Shown piece by piece: positions 5,009 to 13,044 of a stretch of 64,000 nucleotides of DNA. This DNA is from Natronococcus sp. AD-5 (GTDB lineage Archaea; Halobacteriota; Halobacteria; Halobacteriales; Natrialbaceae): the NCBI RefSeq assembly GCF_030734285.1, contig NZ_CP132294.1:3286001-3350000 (forward strand), given 5' to 3'. Every line of letters starts with the position of its first letter. Position 1 is the first letter of the stretch. Below the pieces are notes generated by a model, which was not told where the DNA came from, did no database searches, and worked only from the letters and a program-made list of their open reading frames with translations. A program made the position numbers and the translations under genes.

Positions 5009-5316
5009 GATCGTCTCTCGTTCGGTTGTCCGCGCTCCAGTAGGGCTCCACCGCACTTGGGTAAAAAGCGTTGACCGGCCCTCGCCGAGAGCGACCGTAG
5101 CGGGACGGCTCGATCGTTCGGTGATCGCCGGTCCGTACCGCTCGAAAACGGTACAGTCCGGCGGTGTTAGATAAAATACAGCCGGCTGTTGCAGGCACGT
5201 CAGGTTCCCTGAAACGCCTCCTTATCGTAATCGAAGGGAGTCTACGCGGACGCGCATTCTGGGTAACCGAACCGGGCGGACCGGGTCGTCGACTATCGAA
5301 CGGTCTCAACCGAACA
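5009..5316. other. Divergent intergenic region between cupin and GCS2 genes
   Basis: There is no convincing gene. GTACCG ... CGGTAC form a 6-bp inverted repeat near 5136-5155, followed by an AT-rich patch (GTTAGATAAAATAC, about 5165-5178) that could hold a promoter. The GCS2 gene would then have a leader of roughly 100 bases. Confidence 0.35.
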
Positions 5317-6411
5317 ATGAATACGAGTCTCGAAGTCGAGTACTGGGTGGTCGATAGCGACGGCGAACTCACCTCGCCGGAGTCGCTCGCCGACGTTTCC
5401 GATCACACCGAGCGGGAGTTCGTCGATCCGCTGTTCGAGCTGAAGACGCCGCCGTGCGAGTCGATGTCGGAACTCCGAACGACCTTCGTCGAACAGCTGG
5501 ACGAGGTGCTCGCCCGAGCCGAGCGGGTGGACAAGCGACTCGTCCCGCTCGGAACGCCGATCAACTGCGGCGGGATCGACCGCCGCCCCGGCGAGCGCGG
5601 CCGAATCCAGGAGGCGGTCGTCGGCACCAACTTCGACTACGCGAAGTACTGTGCCGGCACGCACGTCCACTTCGAGAAGCGCAACGTCACGGACCAGCTC
5701 AACGCCCTCATCGCCCTGGATCCGGCGCTCGCGCTCGTCAACTCCTCGCCGTACTTCCAGGGCGAGCGCGTCGCGAACGGGGCTCGAGCGTACTGCTACC
5801 GGAAGAAGGGGTACGCCGAGTTCCCGCGACACGGCCAGCTGTGGAACTACGTGGACAACGTCGGCGAGTGGCGCCGCCGCCTCGAGCGCTGCTTCGAGGC
5901 GTTCGAGGCGGAAGCGCTCGAGGCGGGCGTCGACGAGGACGCGATCGAGGACAACTTCTCGCCGGACGACATCGTCTGGACGCCGGTCCGACTGCGCGAC
6001 GAGATGCCGACGGTCGAGTGGCGCTCGCCCGACGCGGCGCTGCCGAGTCAGCTGCTCCGGCTGACGGACGAGGTGCACGGCGTGATGGAGACGCTCCACC
6101 ACACCAACGTGCAGATCGACGACGAGACCGGCGGCGAGGCCGGCCACGTCACGAGCGAGGGGATCACCCTCCCCGACTTCGGCACCGCGTTCGACCTCAC
6201 CGAGTCGGCGATCCACGACGGACTCGAGTCGGCCCCCGTCGCGCGGTACCTCGACCGAATGGGATTCTCGATCGACGACTACCACCCGATCGCGACGCAG
6301 ATCGACGGCCGTCAGTACGTGACGAAAGGCGACGCCAGAGACCTGCGCCTCGAGTACGCGAGTCGCCTCGAGACGGACCTCGATCGCCTCCGTGCGACGA
6401 CCGACGGGTAG
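5317..6411 (+). CDS. Glutamate-cysteine ligase (GCS2) family protein
   Basis: The 364-residue protein belongs to the GCS2 / YbdK carboxylate-amine ligase family, whose haloarchaeal members include the enzyme that makes gamma-glutamylcysteine, the main low-molecular-weight thiol of these cells. The N-terminal strand reads SLEVEYWVVD, where bona fide GshA has a VEEEF pattern. CAGTHVHFEKRNV (about 117-129) and TVEWRSPDAALP (about 235) are conserved substrate and metal regions. The altered first motif suggests a paralogue with a different amine or acid partner, not the housekeeping GshA. The ATG at 5317 matches the family start. It runs convergently into the broken nickel-permease gene. Confidence 0.75.
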   Translation: MNTSLEVEYWVVDSDGELTSPESLADVSDHTEREFVDPLFELKTPPCESMSELRTTFVEQLDEVLARAERVDKRLVPLGTPINCGGIDRRPGERGRIQEAVVGTNFDYAKYCAGTHVHFEKRNVTDQLNALIALDPALALVNSSPYFQGERVANGARAYCYRKKGYAEFPRHGQLWNYVDNVGEWRRRLERCFEAFEAEALEAGVDEDAIEDNFSPDDIVWTPVRLRDEMPTVEWRSPDAALPSQLLRLTDEVHGVMETLHHTNVQIDDETGGEAGHVTSEGITLPDFGTAFDLTESAIHDGLESAPVARYLDRMGFSIDDYHPIATQIDGRQYVTKGDARDLRLEYASRLETDLDRLRATTDG

Positions 6412-6415
6412 TACG

Positions 6416-7204
6416 TTAGATGACGCCCAGGACGAACGCAAGCCCCATGCCGACGAGCACGACCGCGGTGACCGTCGGCGGGTACGGCGTGTACCGTTCG
6501 GTCCGCTCGCGGTAGCGTTCGTGGCCCGCGATCAACAGCAACGTCGGCGCGATGATCGCGACGATGACGGCCAGCGAGTAGAGCACCATCGGCTCGAGGC
6601 AGGACTCCGTCCCGACGCAGATCGCCAGGATCTGGATCGGTTCTTCGTGGGCGAAGCCGAGCGCGAACAGCCCGCGTTCGGCGTGTTCTTCGCTGAGATG
6701 GTGATGACCGCCACCGCCGGGGAGCGCGGCGCGGATCCGCTCGAGGGGCCGGGTTCGGAGTCGTCGCGGTCGTCGATCTCGTCGACGCGCTCGCCGCCGT
6801 TGGTGCGATGGTGGTCGTGTTCCTGATAGTCGTGGTGATCGTGTCCGTGTGGATCGGCGTGGTCGTGGCTATGTTCGTGATCGTGACCATGATCGTGGTC
6901 GTGCATCCCGTGGCCGCCGTGTCGGTACTCGCGGATCCCGAGCAGGATCAGGAGCGTTCCGGCGACGTACCGGAGCCACGGCCTCGGCGAACTCGGCGAA
7001 CGCGCTGAACCAGAAGTACGCCAGGACGAGCACGACGCTGCTGATCGGCTGTCCGACGCCGAGAATCGACGCCGCGAGAACGCCGAAGAGCCAGCGTCGA
7101 TTTCGGTTCAGCGCGTACGTCGTCGCGATCGGCCAGCCGTGATCCGGTAACACGCCGTGGACGAAGCCGATCAGGACGACGCCGGCAACGAGCCCGGTCT
7201 CCAT
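6416..7204 (-). pseudogene. Nickel/cobalt (NicO/HupE-like) permease, disrupted by two frame changes
   Basis: The reverse strand encodes a probable divalent-metal permease in three pieces. Frame A (7204 to about 6980) gives METGLVAGVVLIGFVHGVLP, whose HGVLPDHG resembles the metal-site helix of nickel/cobalt transporters. The reading then moves by one base to frame B (about 6980-6755), which encodes a membrane helix (YVAGTLLILLGIREY) and a very His/Asp-rich loop beginning MHDHDHGHDHEHSHDH. Near 6755 it returns to frame A, with FALGFAHEEPIQILAICVG and a C-terminal helix ending VLVGMGLAFVLGVI at a TAA at 6416-6418. The net shift is zero. Either the gene is decaying or two indel errors lie in the assembly. 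If intact it would be a Ni/Co transporter of about 260 residues, fitting the nearby larE. Confidence 0.75.
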
Positions 7205-7294: not shown

Positions 7295-7858
7295 TCAGTT
7301 GCCGTCGTCGTACTTGTACTCCACCTCCGGATCCTCGACGCCTTCGGTCCGCGAGCCGACCCAGGCGCCGAGCGAGAGGCCGTACACGAGGTGGCCGGCG
7401 TGGAACAGCGCGAGTTCGTCGGCCTCGAGGCGGATGTCGAGCAGTTCCTTCAGCATGACCTGCGAGCCGAACGCGGACAGCGCCATCCCGAAGACCGAGC
7501 CCCAGACGAGGCCGCGCTGTTCGGGCTCGATGGATCGGTCGGCGTCGAACAGGGCGAACAGCGCGCCGAAGATCGCACCGCTTTGCATCCCGTACGCGAA
7601 GTGCAGGAGCAGCCCGGCGATCGGATGGTCCTCGGGGTCGCCGCCGGTGACGTACCTCGCCCAGAAGTTGGCCGAAGGCGGGAGTGACCGCAGGATCGGA
7701 AGCCGGAACGCGGTCATGATGAGCGTCGCGACGAACCCGGCCTGGAGCCCGCGAACGGCCGCCGAGGCGGCGTGCGCGCCGCGCGATCGGTCGTCGGCCT
7801 CCTCGGTGTGCCCTTCGGTGTCGCCGCTCGGTCGGAGCCGTCGAAATCGGTTGAGCAT
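7295..7858 (-). CDS. DUF6789-like membrane protein
   Basis: This 187-residue integral membrane protein has four hydrophobic segments after a charged N-terminal 35 residues (about 40-60, 83-105, 122-140 and 155-172). Features include RGLQAGFVATLIMTAFRLP and HFAYGMQSGAIFGALFALF, patterns of the haloarchaeal DUF6789 family. Function is unknown. The ATG at 7858 is taken; a GTG three codons upstream is possible. It is transcribed divergently from larE and in the same direction as the broken nickel permease, 90 bases away, so the two could once have shared a transcript. Confidence 0.7.
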   Translation of the reverse strand: MLNRFRRLRPSGDTEGHTEEADDRSRGAHAASAAVRGLQAGFVATLIMTAFRLPILRSLPPSANFWARYVTGGDPEDHPIAGLLLHFAYGMQSGAIFGALFALFDADRSIEPEQRGLVWGSVFGMALSAFGSQVMLKELLDIRLEADELALFHAGHLVYGLSLGAWVGSRTEGVEDPEVEYKYDDGN

Positions 7859-7990
7859 AGTGGCCACGGAACGGACGATACGGCGGATATCGACTTAACT
7901 ATCGGGCGCGCTGCTTACTGCATCCGTCCCGGACCCGCTCGAGCGGTCGACGACAACGCGCTTTTGCCCGTCCGGGACGAACGGGGGGCC

Positions 7991-8851
7991 ATGACACGGG
8001 TCGAGGCGAAACTCGAGGCCGCGCGCGACGACCTCGCAGCCCACGACGGCGTGCTGATCGCGTTCTCCGGCGGGGTCGACTCGAGCGTGGTGGCCGCCCT
8101 CGCTCACGATGCCTTAGGCGGGGACGCGGTCGCCTGCACCGCGAAGAGCGAGACGCTCCCGGCGGCCGAACTCGAGGACGCCAGACGGGTCGCCGAGGAG
8201 ATCGGCATCCGCCACGAGATCGTCGAATTCTCCGAACTCGAGAGCGACGCGTTCGTCGAGAACGACGACGACCGCTGCTATCACTGCCGGACGATGCGGC
8301 TGGGCGAGATGATCGAGACCGCCCGCGAGTTCGGGATCGAGACGGTCTGCGACGGGACCAACGCCGACGATCCGGGCGCCGGCCACCGGCCGGGACTGCA
8401 GGCCGTCGACGAACTCGAGGTTCACTCGCCGCTTCTGGCCCACGGCATCTCGAAGGAGGAAGTCCGGAAGATCGCCGACCGCTACGACCTCTCGGTCGCC
8501 GACAAACCCTCGATGGCCTGTCTCTCCTCGCGCATCCCGACGGGGCTCGAGGTCACCGAGGACCGACTCACTCGCGTCGAGCGAGCCGAGGCGCTGCTGC
8601 GCCAGTGGGGGTTCGACCAGTTCCGCGTTCGGGATCACGACGGCCTCGCCCGCATCGAGGTCTCGCCCGACGAACTCGAGCGCGCGCTCGAACTCGAGTT
8701 CGTCGAGACCGTCCGCGCCGAGCTCTCGAAGATCGGCTTCGAGCACGTCACGCTGGATCTCCACGGCTACCGGACCGGAAGCGTCAGCCCCGGGAACGAC
8801 GACCCCGTCGTCGAGGACGTCTTCGCCGCCGACTCGGAGTCCGACGACTGA
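7991..8851 (+). CDS. larE: LarE, ATP-dependent sulfur transferase for the nickel-pincer cofactor
   Basis: LarE activates the cofactor precursor with ATP and supplies sulfur to make the pyridinium bis-thiocarboxylate that LarC then loads with nickel, giving the cofactor of lactate racemase and relatives. The 286-residue protein has the PP-loop SGGVDSS at 26-32. Its key cysteines are C96 and C99 in CYHC and C177 in SMACLSSRIPTG. C177 matches the sacrificial cysteine position of Lactiplantibacillus LarE. Having three cysteines matches the LarE subtype that uses a [4Fe-4S] cluster to carry sulfur catalytically, which I infer here. No larA, larB or larC lies in the window. The ATG at 7991 has a T-rich element about 28 bases upstream. 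Confidence 0.88.
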   Translation: MTRVEAKLEAARDDLAAHDGVLIAFSGGVDSSVVAALAHDALGGDAVACTAKSETLPAAELEDARRVAEEIGIRHEIVEFSELESDAFVENDDDRCYHCRTMRLGEMIETAREFGIETVCDGTNADDPGAGHRPGLQAVDELEVHSPLLAHGISKEEVRKIADRYDLSVADKPSMACLSSRIPTGLEVTEDRLTRVERAEALLRQWGFDQFRVRDHDGLARIEVSPDELERALELEFVETVRAELSKIGFEHVTLDLHGYRTGSVSPGNDDPVVEDVFAADSESDD

Positions 8852-9450: not shown

Positions 9451-10545
9451 CTACCGGCCGGCCCACTTCAGGATCAACAGCGTCCCTTCGAACAGCAGGA
9501 TCATCGTGATGGCGACGAGGATGGGTGCCATCATCGTCGGATCCATCGTGAACATGAACGCCAGCCCCGCGAACGCGGCCCAGAAGTAGAGCCGCTTGTC
9601 GGCGAGCCACTTTCGGGTCGTGACGCCCATCAGAATCGCGAGCATGATGAACAGCGGGATCTGGAAGACGATCGCGAGGAAGCCGGTCAGCGTGATGATC
9701 AGGTTGAAGGTGTCGCCGAGCGCGTAGGCGATGTTCGCGCTGCCCTCCGCGTAGAAGGTGAAGTACTGGAACAGGACCGGTAACACGAGCAGGTAGGAAA
9801 ACACCATTCCGAGCCCGGCGAGCACGACGCTCGTCGGGACCGCCGCGAGGTAGTACTTGCGCTCGTGCGGGTAGAGCCCCGGTCGCATGAACAGGTAACA
9901 CTGGTAGACGAACATCGGCAGCGCGACCATGATGCCGAGCAGCGCCGAGAGCTTGATCCGGGTCAGCCACAGTTCGAGCGGATGGTAGACGTGCGGCGGC
10001 GGCACGTCCTCGATCCGCGTGGGGAAGACGTTGAGCCAAACGTGCTCGATGGCCTGCGAGGCCCACAGCAACCCGATCGCCGTGCCGGCCGCGCCGACGA
10101 GCAACACGACCGCGAGCCGGAGGACCATCTCCTCGATGTGGTCCGCGAGCGGCATCTCTTCGTCGTCGGGCGGCGTCGAGATGCCGCCGACGTCCTCGTT
10201 CGGATCGGGATAGGTGGGCTCGCGCTCGTCGGGATGGTCGCCGACGACCCCTTCACCGTCGGTCTCGAGCGAGGGCGGTCTGTCTACGTTCTCGAGGGTG
10301 CCGTTCGCGGAATCGTCGTCGACGTCCGCGTCGTCACCCGCATCGGATCGGTCGGCATCCGCTGACGCCGCGTCCGGATTCCCGGCATCCGCGTCGCGAG
10401 CAGCCGATGCGTCCCCGGCATCCTCGGCCGTGGGAGTCGCCGGATCGGATTCCGAACCGGCGTCGTTCGGCGGCTGCTCCCCGGGATCGTCCCGCGGCTC
10501 CTCGGGGCGTTCGACGTCCCCATCGTTCGCCGACTCGTCCGACAT
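9451..10545 (-). CDS. tatC: Sec-independent translocase subunit TatC, with long acidic N-terminal extension
   Basis: TatC is the signal-peptide receptor of the twin-arginine pathway, the main export route of haloarchaea. The 364-residue protein has a TatC core from about residue 134 (DHIEEMVLRLAVVL) with six membrane helices, the cytoplasmic motif FMRPGLYPHERKYY and FMFTMDPTMMAP near the C-terminus. The first 130 residues are a disordered Asp/Glu/Ser/Ala-rich tail not found in bacterial TatC, probably cytoplasmic. The gene faces away from the double-length tatC at 10690 across 144 bases, an arrangement known in haloarchaea. An AT-rich CTATAA element lies about 30 bases upstream of the ATG. 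Confidence 0.93.
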   Translation of the reverse strand: MSDESANDGDVERPEEPRDDPGEQPPNDAGSESDPATPTAEDAGDASAARDADAGNPDAASADADRSDAGDDADVDDDSANGTLENVDRPPSLETDGEGVVGDHPDEREPTYPDPNEDVGGISTPPDDEEMPLADHIEEMVLRLAVVLLVGAAGTAIGLLWASQAIEHVWLNVFPTRIEDVPPPHVYHPLELWLTRIKLSALLGIMVALPMFVYQCYLFMRPGLYPHERKYYLAAVPTSVVLAGLGMVFSYLLVLPVLFQYFTFYAEGSANIAYALGDTFNLIITLTGFLAIVFQIPLFIMLAILMGVTTRKWLADKRLYFWAAFAGLAFMFTMDPTMMAPILVAITMILLFEGTLLILKWAGR

Positions 10546-10689: not shown

Positions 10690-13044
10690 ATGAGTTCTGC
10701 CGTCGACGAAGATACAGCCCGAGCCATCAACACCGGCCGGGAAACGATCGGCGCGTTGCTCTCGAGCGTGCAGACGCACCTCCAGAAGATCTTCATCGTC
10801 TTCGTGCTCGGCTTCGTCGGCGCCTTCTACGCCCTGCGAGTGTGGATCTGGGCATTCCTCGAGGAAACGGCGAAATCGGAGATGTCTCGGAACGTCGCCG
10901 AGGCGACCGACATCATCACTCGGACGCCGTTCGAGGTGATCCTGTTACAGGCGAAGATCGGAATGCTGGTCGGGATCGTCGTCACGATCCCGGCGGTACT
11001 GTACTACTCCCGGGACGCGCTGCACCGACGCGGCTTCCAGTCGGCCGTTCCGATCTCGAAGCTGCACGTGGCCGGCCTCGCGGCGACCTCGTTCGGCCTG
11101 TTCTGGATCGGCGTCTTCTACGCCTACGCGATCTTCTTCCCCTTCGCGTTCGACTTCCTCGCCGCCGTCGCGTACGAGGCCGGCGTCGATCCCAGCTGGG
11201 GCATCACCGAGTTCACAGAATTCATCGCGCTGTTGACCCTCTCGTTCGGGCTCGCGGCGCAGATGCCGCTGTTCATGGGCGTCCTCTCGTACACGGAGAT
11301 CGTCCCCTACGAAACGTTCCGTAACAAGTGGCGCCACGCGGCGGTCGCCATCACCGTCTTCGGCGCGATGTTCTCCCCGCCGGACCCGTTCACGCTGATC
11401 ATGTGGGCGCTCCCGCTGTTCGCGCTCTACGTCTTCAGCCTCGGCCTCTCGAAGGTGGTTACCAACGTCCGCCGGCGCGGCGCGGCCGAACTCGACACCG
11501 GAACGGGGCTCATGAAGCAGCGCCTCCTCCAGTTCACCGGCGTCGTGATCGTCACCGCCATCGCGGCGGTCGCGTTCGTCAACCAGGGCGGGTTCGCGTT
11601 CGTCAGCGAGTCGGTCTATCCGCAGCTTCCGGCCCAGCTGCAGCCCGCCGACGGGAACATCGGTCTCTGGCCGCTCGTTGCCGAGTACGGGCTGCTGGGC
11701 GAGCTCGCCGTCGGCGCGATCGCCGCCGCCGCCCTCGGCTTTCTCATCCTCGTCGGATACACGCTGAAGGTCCTGCAGTCGCCGATCTACCCGCGCGAAG
11801 ACGACATCCGGAGCGCCGATACCACCGAGGACGTCGACTTCGAGACGCTCGAGGCCGAGGACATCGAGGACGTGCCGGCGACGGTCTTCCTCGAGATGGA
11901 CGAAGAGGAGGCCCTCGAGTACTCCCGGAAGGCGATGTACGACGACAACCGGGACAAGGCGAAGGCGATCCTGAACCGGTTCGACGGCCTTCAGAAGCAG
12001 CGACGGGAGGCGGCCGACGACGGCGCGGGCTCGGACGCCGGCGCGACCGGCGGAACGGGCGCCGGCGCGGCGGCCGCCGAGAGCGGCGAGGAGGGGGAGA
12101 ACGTCGTCTCGAGTACGGCCGCCGGAATGCTCGACGCGTTCACCGAGGAGGAGACGACCGAGGACGACATCGGCGGCTACGCCTACGACCTCGCGTTCAT
12201 CTTCAACAGTCTCACCTCGAAGATGTTCTACATCGTGGGCGTGTTCATGGCCGTCCTCGGCGGGACGTTCGTCGCGCTCTACCAGGGCGGGTTCGGGATC
12301 ATCCTGACGCAGTTCGTCGAGCGCGTTCCGGACGAGGCCCTCGCCGAAGTCACGGAGAAGAGCGAAGCGGAGATCGCCGCCGCGGAGTCGACACAGGAGA
12401 TGGTAGATATCTTGAACGAGGCGGGGCTCGTCATCGCCTTACACCCCGTCGAGGTGCTGATCTTCATGGTGAAGGTGAGCACGATCCTGGCGGTCATCTC
12501 CGTCCTGCCGCTGATCATGTACTGGGGCTGGCCGGCGGCCAGAGAGCGCGGGCTCGTCCGCGGCGATCCGCGGGTGTTCCTCGTCTGGGGCGGGGCGATA
12601 TTCGCCGGGTTCGGCATCGGGCTGTTCATCGGCTTCTACTGGATCGCGCCCGCGGTGATCTCCTACCTGATCACCGACGCCGTCACGAACGGGATGGAGG
12701 TCTCCTACCGGATCAACAGCTTCTCCTGGCTCGTTATCTACACGACCATCGGCGTGGGCTTCCTGTTCAACATCATCGTCACGATGGCGCTGTTCCACGT
12801 CGGCGGCATCGTCAGCTACCGGACGATGCTCGACCGCTGGCGGCCCGTCGTCGTCGGAATCTTCACGGCCGCCGCGTTCTTCAGTCCGAAGGGGATCCTG
12901 ACGATGCTGCTGGTGGCGATTCCGATCGCGCTGACCTACGTGTTCGGACTCGCCGTCCTGTACGTCCTCACCGGCGGCGGACGGTTCTTCGGCGGCGGAC
13001 GCGGCGGCGCGCCGGACCCCGAGGCCAACGCCGCCGGCGAGTGA
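10690..13044 (+). CDS. tatC2: Double-length TatC (TatCt, two fused TatC domains)
   Basis: This 784-residue protein is the haloarchaeal TatCt: two TatC modules in one chain. The first module covers about 20-285 (for example FRNKWRHAAVAITVFGAMFS). An acidic linker spans about 340-490. The second module covers about 495-765 (VEVLIFMVKVSTILAVISVL, then VVVGIFTAAAFFSPKGILT). Fourteen membrane helices are expected. It acts with TatA proteins, not encoded here, in exporting folded proteins. The linker carries long Glu/Asp and Gly/Ala runs. The start at 10690 (MSSAVDEDTA) is the first ATG after the divergent promoter region. The ribbon-helix-helix gene follows 50 bases later. Confidence 0.93.
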   Translation: MSSAVDEDTARAINTGRETIGALLSSVQTHLQKIFIVFVLGFVGAFYALRVWIWAFLEETAKSEMSRNVAEATDIITRTPFEVILLQAKIGMLVGIVVTIPAVLYYSRDALHRRGFQSAVPISKLHVAGLAATSFGLFWIGVFYAYAIFFPFAFDFLAAVAYEAGVDPSWGITEFTEFIALLTLSFGLAAQMPLFMGVLSYTEIVPYETFRNKWRHAAVAITVFGAMFSPPDPFTLIMWALPLFALYVFSLGLSKVVTNVRRRGAAELDTGTGLMKQRLLQFTGVVIVTAIAAVAFVNQGGFAFVSESVYPQLPAQLQPADGNIGLWPLVAEYGLLGELAVGAIAAAALGFLILVGYTLKVLQSPIYPREDDIRSADTTEDVDFETLEAEDIEDVPATVFLEMDEEEALEYSRKAMYDDNRDKAKAILNRFDGLQKQRREAADDGAGSDAGATGGTGAGAAAAESGEEGENVVSSTAAGMLDAFTEEETTEDDIGGYAYDLAFIFNSLTSKMFYIVGVFMAVLGGTFVALYQGGFGIILTQFVERVPDEALAEVTEKSEAEIAAAESTQEMVDILNEAGLVIALHPVEVLIFMVKVSTILAVISVLPLIMYWGWPAARERGLVRGDPRVFLVWGGAIFAGFGIGLFIGFYWIAPAVISYLITDAVTNGMEVSYRINSFSWLVIYTTIGVGFLFNIIVTMALFHVGGIVSYRTMLDRWRPVVVGIFTAAAFFSPKGILTMLLVAIPIALTYVFGLAVLYVLTGGGRFFGGGRGGAPDPEANAAGE

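Follow-up and report, generated by a model that had tools for sequence, protein, structure and literature searches.

For the nickel transporters NikMNQO and NikKMLQO, two sets of ECF transporter subunits, Zhang et al. (2009, PMC2667541) report no organism that possesses both and describe the relation of the two systems as complementary or mutually exclusive. According to the same source, nikR of E. coli adjoins the nickel importer operon that it regulates. Pseudogenes are stated to account for 1-5% or more of the gene-like sequences in the prokaryotes surveyed in PMC522871, where a large fraction of them is attributed to seemingly failed transfers. The locus described here, a broken permease gene in Natronococcus, differs from both descriptions. 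In place of ECF subunit sets, it concerns two clades of one permease family with rare overlaps, namely a resident clade that includes the broken gene (type A) and a distant paralogue clade (type B), and in place of a failed newcomer, as far as PMC522871 describes such cases, it is the resident gene that decays while the likely newcomer stays.

The window, a stretch of 64,000 nucleotides, corresponds to C1:3286001-3350000 of the Natronococcus genome G000 (5.17 Mb in 2 contigs, completeness rating 98.78%). Reading positions 7204..6416 of the minus strand as a permease needs three pieces, with the His-rich piece in a different frame than the others. Translations in three frames bore out what the earlier note had recognized from the letters of the sequence: the segments compose a permease of the Ni/Co type, its His-rich loop is encoded only in the shifted middle frame, and the first and last segments share one frame, the net shift being zero. 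The frame changes, at 6984/6985 and about 6747, fell within the intervals given for them in that note or on their borders. Each end piece matched relatives whose open frame spans the whole gene; with type A and type B taken together, the first piece had matches in 90 and the last piece in 92 of the 125 genomes of the family Natrialbaceae that were searched. The type A locus has the same neighbours in G001, G004, G008, G006 and G003, where it also lies between the genes for DUF6789 and GCS2. In a phylogenetic tree the window copy grouped with seven sequences of its genus with a support of 91/94, which is just below the star of the tree program.

Table 1. Coordinates of the permease segments, deletion sites and intact neighbours in the window
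Feature	Position	Strand	Remarks
First segment, frame 1	6985..7204	-	N-terminal helices, HGVLPDHGWP motif; A28T, H52Q and L53P at positions invariant in 36 homologues
Site of 2-nt deletion, first frame change	6984..6985	-	Relative to 7/7 intact orthologues of the genus
Middle segment, shifted frame	6748..6984	-	Rest of the GPWLRY-type helix, H92R, His-rich loop
Site of 1-nt deletion, second frame change, return to frame 1	6746..6747	-	Relative to relatives
Third segment, frame 1	6416..6745	-	Ends at TAA stop 6418-6416
Site of 21-nt in-frame deletion	6662..6663	-	7 residues, first predicted helix after the loop
DUF6789 protein (Pfam PF20587), intact	7295..7867	-	
GCS2 / YbdK-type carboxylate-amine ligase-like gene, intact	5308..6411	+	
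LarE (sacrificial sulfur transferase), intact	7991..8851	+	TIGR00268, 292 bits vs cut-off 150

By score, only type B is a member of the NicO family (PF03824), reaching 32.0 bits against the Pfam gathering cut-off of 27.7. Type A is homologous to type B but stays below this cut-off, in the window pieces as well as in the intact relatives, and a single one of its 36 members matched the model at an E-value of 0.01 or lower (0.0028). The model of the efflux protein RcnA (NF007454) matched weakly to 28 of the 36 type A proteins and to type B, all of which have the His-rich loop in common with it. The scores obtained here, 34.7 and 35.3 bits, are far under the cut-off of 195, and the His-rich composition may inflate them. 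The adjacency of NikR speaks for uptake, unlike RcnA-type efflux, and we infer the metal and the direction of transport (uptake, not efflux) only from this adjacency and from the family resemblance. A fold model of an intact relative had a mean pLDDT of 72, with values below 50 in the loop, and found no significant structure match in the PDB, the best being CcdA with an E-value of 0.77. A sequence search of the PDB retrieved zinc transporter 7 (E-value 1.5e-6); the aligned region takes in the His loop, and the match is perhaps an effect of composition.

The intact type A proteins of Natronococcus, for example those of N. pandeyae and N. amylolyticus, share place, motifs and His loop with the window copy. 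They are encoded in single open frames of 276-281 aa, in contrast to the window copy with its broken frame and its loss of conserved residues. Seven of the eight other genomes of the genus searched keep type A intact. In comparison to these seven orthologues, each a single frame, three deletions stand out in the window copy: one of 2 nt at 6984/6985, one of 1 nt at about 6747 and an in-frame one of 21 nt at about 6663. None of them occurs in any of the seven. The alignment to intact homologues thus recovered three pieces of one permease, as expected, but replaced the two opposite one-base changes of the earlier note with deletions of 2 and 1 nt and added the 21-nt deletion that had been overlooked. 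The latter takes seven residues out of the first long predicted helix that follows the loop, which in an intact relative spans residues 182-202, and in most relatives the site of the deletion is flanked by short direct repeats. The length of the His loop differs as well; since the loops of intact relatives also vary, this difference was left out of the lesion count.

The conserved residues were defined from an alignment (A2) of 36 of the 39 loci found; L147 and L154 (cut at the contig end and at an end, respectively) and L153 (unusually long loop) were omitted. Of the 77 invariant columns, the window copy breaks nine, by the substitutions A28T, H52Q, L53P, L222P, Y245H and L259P and by three deleted residues. 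G004 and G008, neither of which belongs to the 36 defining sequences, break none (0/77 each). The count depends slightly on the selection: L153 has F where L259 stands, so that its inclusion would make residue 259 no longer invariant, and L154 with its Q at the position of E221 would take that column off the list too. The third segment, which contains the last three substitutions, additionally carries H247R and I252T; it is 83-86% identical to four members of the genus, or 78-81% by another count. Altogether the predicted helices of the window copy have acquired three prolines and lost a histidine at conserved positions.

Private changes, scored where the other seven sequences of the genus agree and with the His loop omitted, pointed in the same direction. 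In 203 core codons the window gene had 13 nonsynonymous changes and 1 synonymous change, compared to 12:37 summed over the seven orthologues (Fisher, p=5e-6). The six flanking genes in the window gave 50:43; without the cupin gene, which was comparable in only 3 genomes, the remaining five gave 31:35 and differed from the 13:1 of the window gene with p=0.002 (Fisher). The measure is noisy, as G004 showed 8:2 private changes though it has no lesion. Among the 14 private changes of the window gene, ten were AT to GC, the reverse of the course that mutation usually takes; at codon positions 1 and 2 the flanking genes, cupin included, leaned slightly the same way (24 vs 17). This bias was given no weight in the assessment. 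Lesions and missense changes together favour a true decay of the gene, which had been named before as one of several alternatives.

The genome contains one intact relative of the window gene, a type B permease of 282 aa at C1:1542581-1543426. Beside it lies a divergent gene with a NikR_C domain (PF08753, 67.9 bits vs a cut-off of 22). A close NikR homologue was found beside type B in seven of the eight family loci with flanks (G000, G007, G015, G017, G035, G125 and G135), the type B locus of G034 having no NikR within 1.5 kb. The same query gave no such homologue next to the type A gene of the window. Among the matches listed, type A has a nearby NikR_C in G014, G033, G035, G077, G078 and G079, and the type A gene of G148 adjoins a NikR homologue of 65% identity. 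The presence of NikR was of no use as a marker of type B, NikR_C being encoded in all 125 genomes; the signal is the adjacency, itself non-exclusive. The type A and type B proteins share 42-54% identity, and in a tree of 28 rows a branch supported at 100/100 separated the two types. In this tree, from which L005, L009 and L014 are absent for want of a usable frame, 10 of the 25 inner branches remained open.

G007 is the only other member of the genus with type B. It has no type A, and GCS2 is located directly beside DUF6789. The type B proteins of G000 and G007 are 94-95% identical, as opposed to 78% for DUF6789, 78% for GCS2 and 87% for LarE between G007 and the window, which fits with a horizontal spread of type B. 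The stretch common to both genomes comprises 1.55 kb with 93.8% DNA identity. The GC3 of type B was 0.73 in G000, where genes in the vicinity of the window copy have about 0.82-0.92, and 0.69 in G007, compared to 0.89-0.94 for neighbouring genes of at least 250 aa. At the site that the cassette occupies in G007, the sequences of G003, G006, G008 and G004 are uninterrupted. No tRNA was found at the type B site in L081, L082 and L168, and a search for the equivalent of a gene near type B gave only relatives of 46-54%, without locating the site.

Across the 125 genomes of the family, type A was present in 58, type B in 35 and both in 4 (Fisher, 7e-7), the types being assigned by identity. Within genera, the 4 overlaps compare to 9.0 expected (p=0.0004, 100,000 permutations); these tests were chosen post hoc, and the permutation within genera leaves some shared ancestry. 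The other 36 genomes comprise 31 without any match, three with type B fragments (G100, G101 and G142) and two with a third form (G018 and G081). The function of the permease is therefore dispensable in places, given the 31 genomes without a match. Type A was broken in two of the four genomes with both types (G000 and G135) and in one of the 53 genomes with type A only (G145; p=0.011), a comparison likewise chosen post hoc, in which two of four is a tiny sample, G010 was dropped owing to a cut at the contig end, and open copies of the latter set were frames of at least 267 aa taken from tables, not individual alignments. Both types are open in G035 and G125, and G074 has two open type A copies. 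In G135 (L077, C4:327000-331500) the type A frame is broken inside the His-rich loop, with type B open in the same genome; this break is confined to the loop, where a sequencing error arises more easily.

Judged from these sequence comparisons, we assign a probability of about 0.8 to the reading that 7204..6416 (minus strand) is a pseudogene, the decayed form of a type A NicO/RcnA-like His-loop Ni/Co permease on which selection was relaxed by the gain of type B. The gene of the window would very probably be the displaced permease, and a paralogous displacement caught part-way is the most likely course of events. The lineage would have gained the distant, NikR-linked type B, which would do the same work as type A; because of this gain, selection on the resident gene would then have relaxed and the gene decayed. 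The old copy would eventually vanish, as suggested by its absence in G007. In general terms, the two His-loop permease clades could compete for one slot, with a small NikR-permease cassette that moves from genus to genus and ousts the resident permease, whose decay would still be under way in the window, a proposal for which we see even odds.

The decay could instead have followed from a lost demand for nickel, for example by the loss of urease, rather than from a replacement of the permease. Consistent with this, urease alpha was not found in G000 while it is present in seven of the nine genomes of the genus. However, it was not found in G004 either, where type A is intact, and LarC (Ni_insertion) was detected in all nine genomes. 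LarE and LarC have their roles in the nickel-pincer cofactor pathway, and the intact larE gene beside type A together with the general presence of LarC suggests a demand for nickel by this pathway. The type B permease with its NikR is likewise intact, which renders a lost demand unlikely as the cause of the decay. Because this NikR-linked paralogue is kept in the genome, the deliberate loss of nickel uptake considered in the earlier note is also unlikely, as is any simple loss of uptake. CbiM as an alternative transporter was not found in any of the nine genomes of the genus, while control genomes gave matches.

A further possibility is that consensus errors of sequencing or assembly in G+C-rich DNA mimic frame changes in a gene that is in reality intact. 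Both frame-changing deletions are indeed small and located within G- or C-rich runs. On the other hand, this would require three deletions, as well as six substitutions at positions without variation in 36 homologues, to be errors that all fell into a single gene, in an assembly of 2 contigs that is 98.78% complete and with clean neighbours. The latter was assessed in 76 tests of neighbouring genes against the corresponding stretches of G001 and G004, using open frames of these relatives with a match of at least 60% identity; the tests are not independent, as G001 and G004 have genes in common, and the stretch L096 yielded none. The only gene proven to be frame-broken was the permease of the window. 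It accounted for two of the eight rows flagged; four others were inspected and judged over-extended or shadow open frames, one runs past the end of the window, and in the last a single frame free of stops fell short in coverage. An assembly artefact, which had been proposed for this locus as typical of such DNA, was rejected as the main cause on account of lesion size (2, 1 and 21 nt), conservation (missense changes at six invariant residues and the deletion of three more) and the 76 neighbour comparisons, and an intact gene behind these errors appears quite improbable, although a consensus error at a single site is possible.

The cell might also retain the N-terminal part of the gene as a shorter functional protein, as an open frame of 111 aa with an ATG start extends over 6869..7204. 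This protein would carry A28T, H52Q and L53P and would end in out-of-frame residues. Moreover, its codon positions differ less clearly in G+C content (0.70/0.56/0.71) than those of the neighbouring frame 5164..6411 (0.69/0.44/0.86), which makes a retained short protein highly improbable. A programmed or tolerated double frameshift, compatible with the net shift of zero and with the lack of stops between the shifts in the frame of the His loop, has a negligible probability, as a single frame serves for each of the seven orthologues of the genus. The product would also remain short of seven residues of a predicted helix and show the three prolines and the lost histidine, frameshifting leaving both the 21-nt loss and the missense changes unrepaired.

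The displacement of a resident permease by a paralogue is ordinary as a kind of event, and the locus, very probably an instance of it, is a useful worked example. What was suspected to be a sequencing error is now documented as gene decay, and annotators should not take the break for an assembly error. The locus may provide a testable example of a metal-transport function changing hands, with the resident gene decaying in the presence of a regulated replacement. The exclusion of the two types allows a prediction of which species relies on which permease. Among the open-access papers listed in literature searches, none dealt, by title and start of the abstract, with the type A/type B gene pair or with the decay of nickel permeases in haloarchaea.

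Some observations were made at the sites of the cassette. In 9 of the 20 type B genomes tested, out of 35 known, the NikR-permease cassette (G000: C1:1542581-1551626, L081 and L168) lies at most 15 kb downstream of aroQ (chorismate mutase) on the same strand. In G007 and G000 the far end of the cassette holds short copies of the aroQ 3'-end, with an overlap of 16 bases; the matches to the aroQ tail in G000, G001 and G017 were weak (E-values 0.015-0.048). The aroQ site looks like an integration hotspot, a subject that was not treated, by title, in the literature listed for it. At or near it, G001 has a gene (L170:2701-3054) whose product we take to resemble a MazF-type toxin, and G142 contains a similar small gene pair (L080:1214-1812) followed by a type B remnant fused to another open frame.

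The window also contains a divergent tatC pair at 9451-10545 (minus strand) and 10690-13044 (plus strand). The second half of the 784-aa TatC protein also matches, with 27-29% identity, the coding region of the first half in relatives, so that this protein is probably a double TatC.
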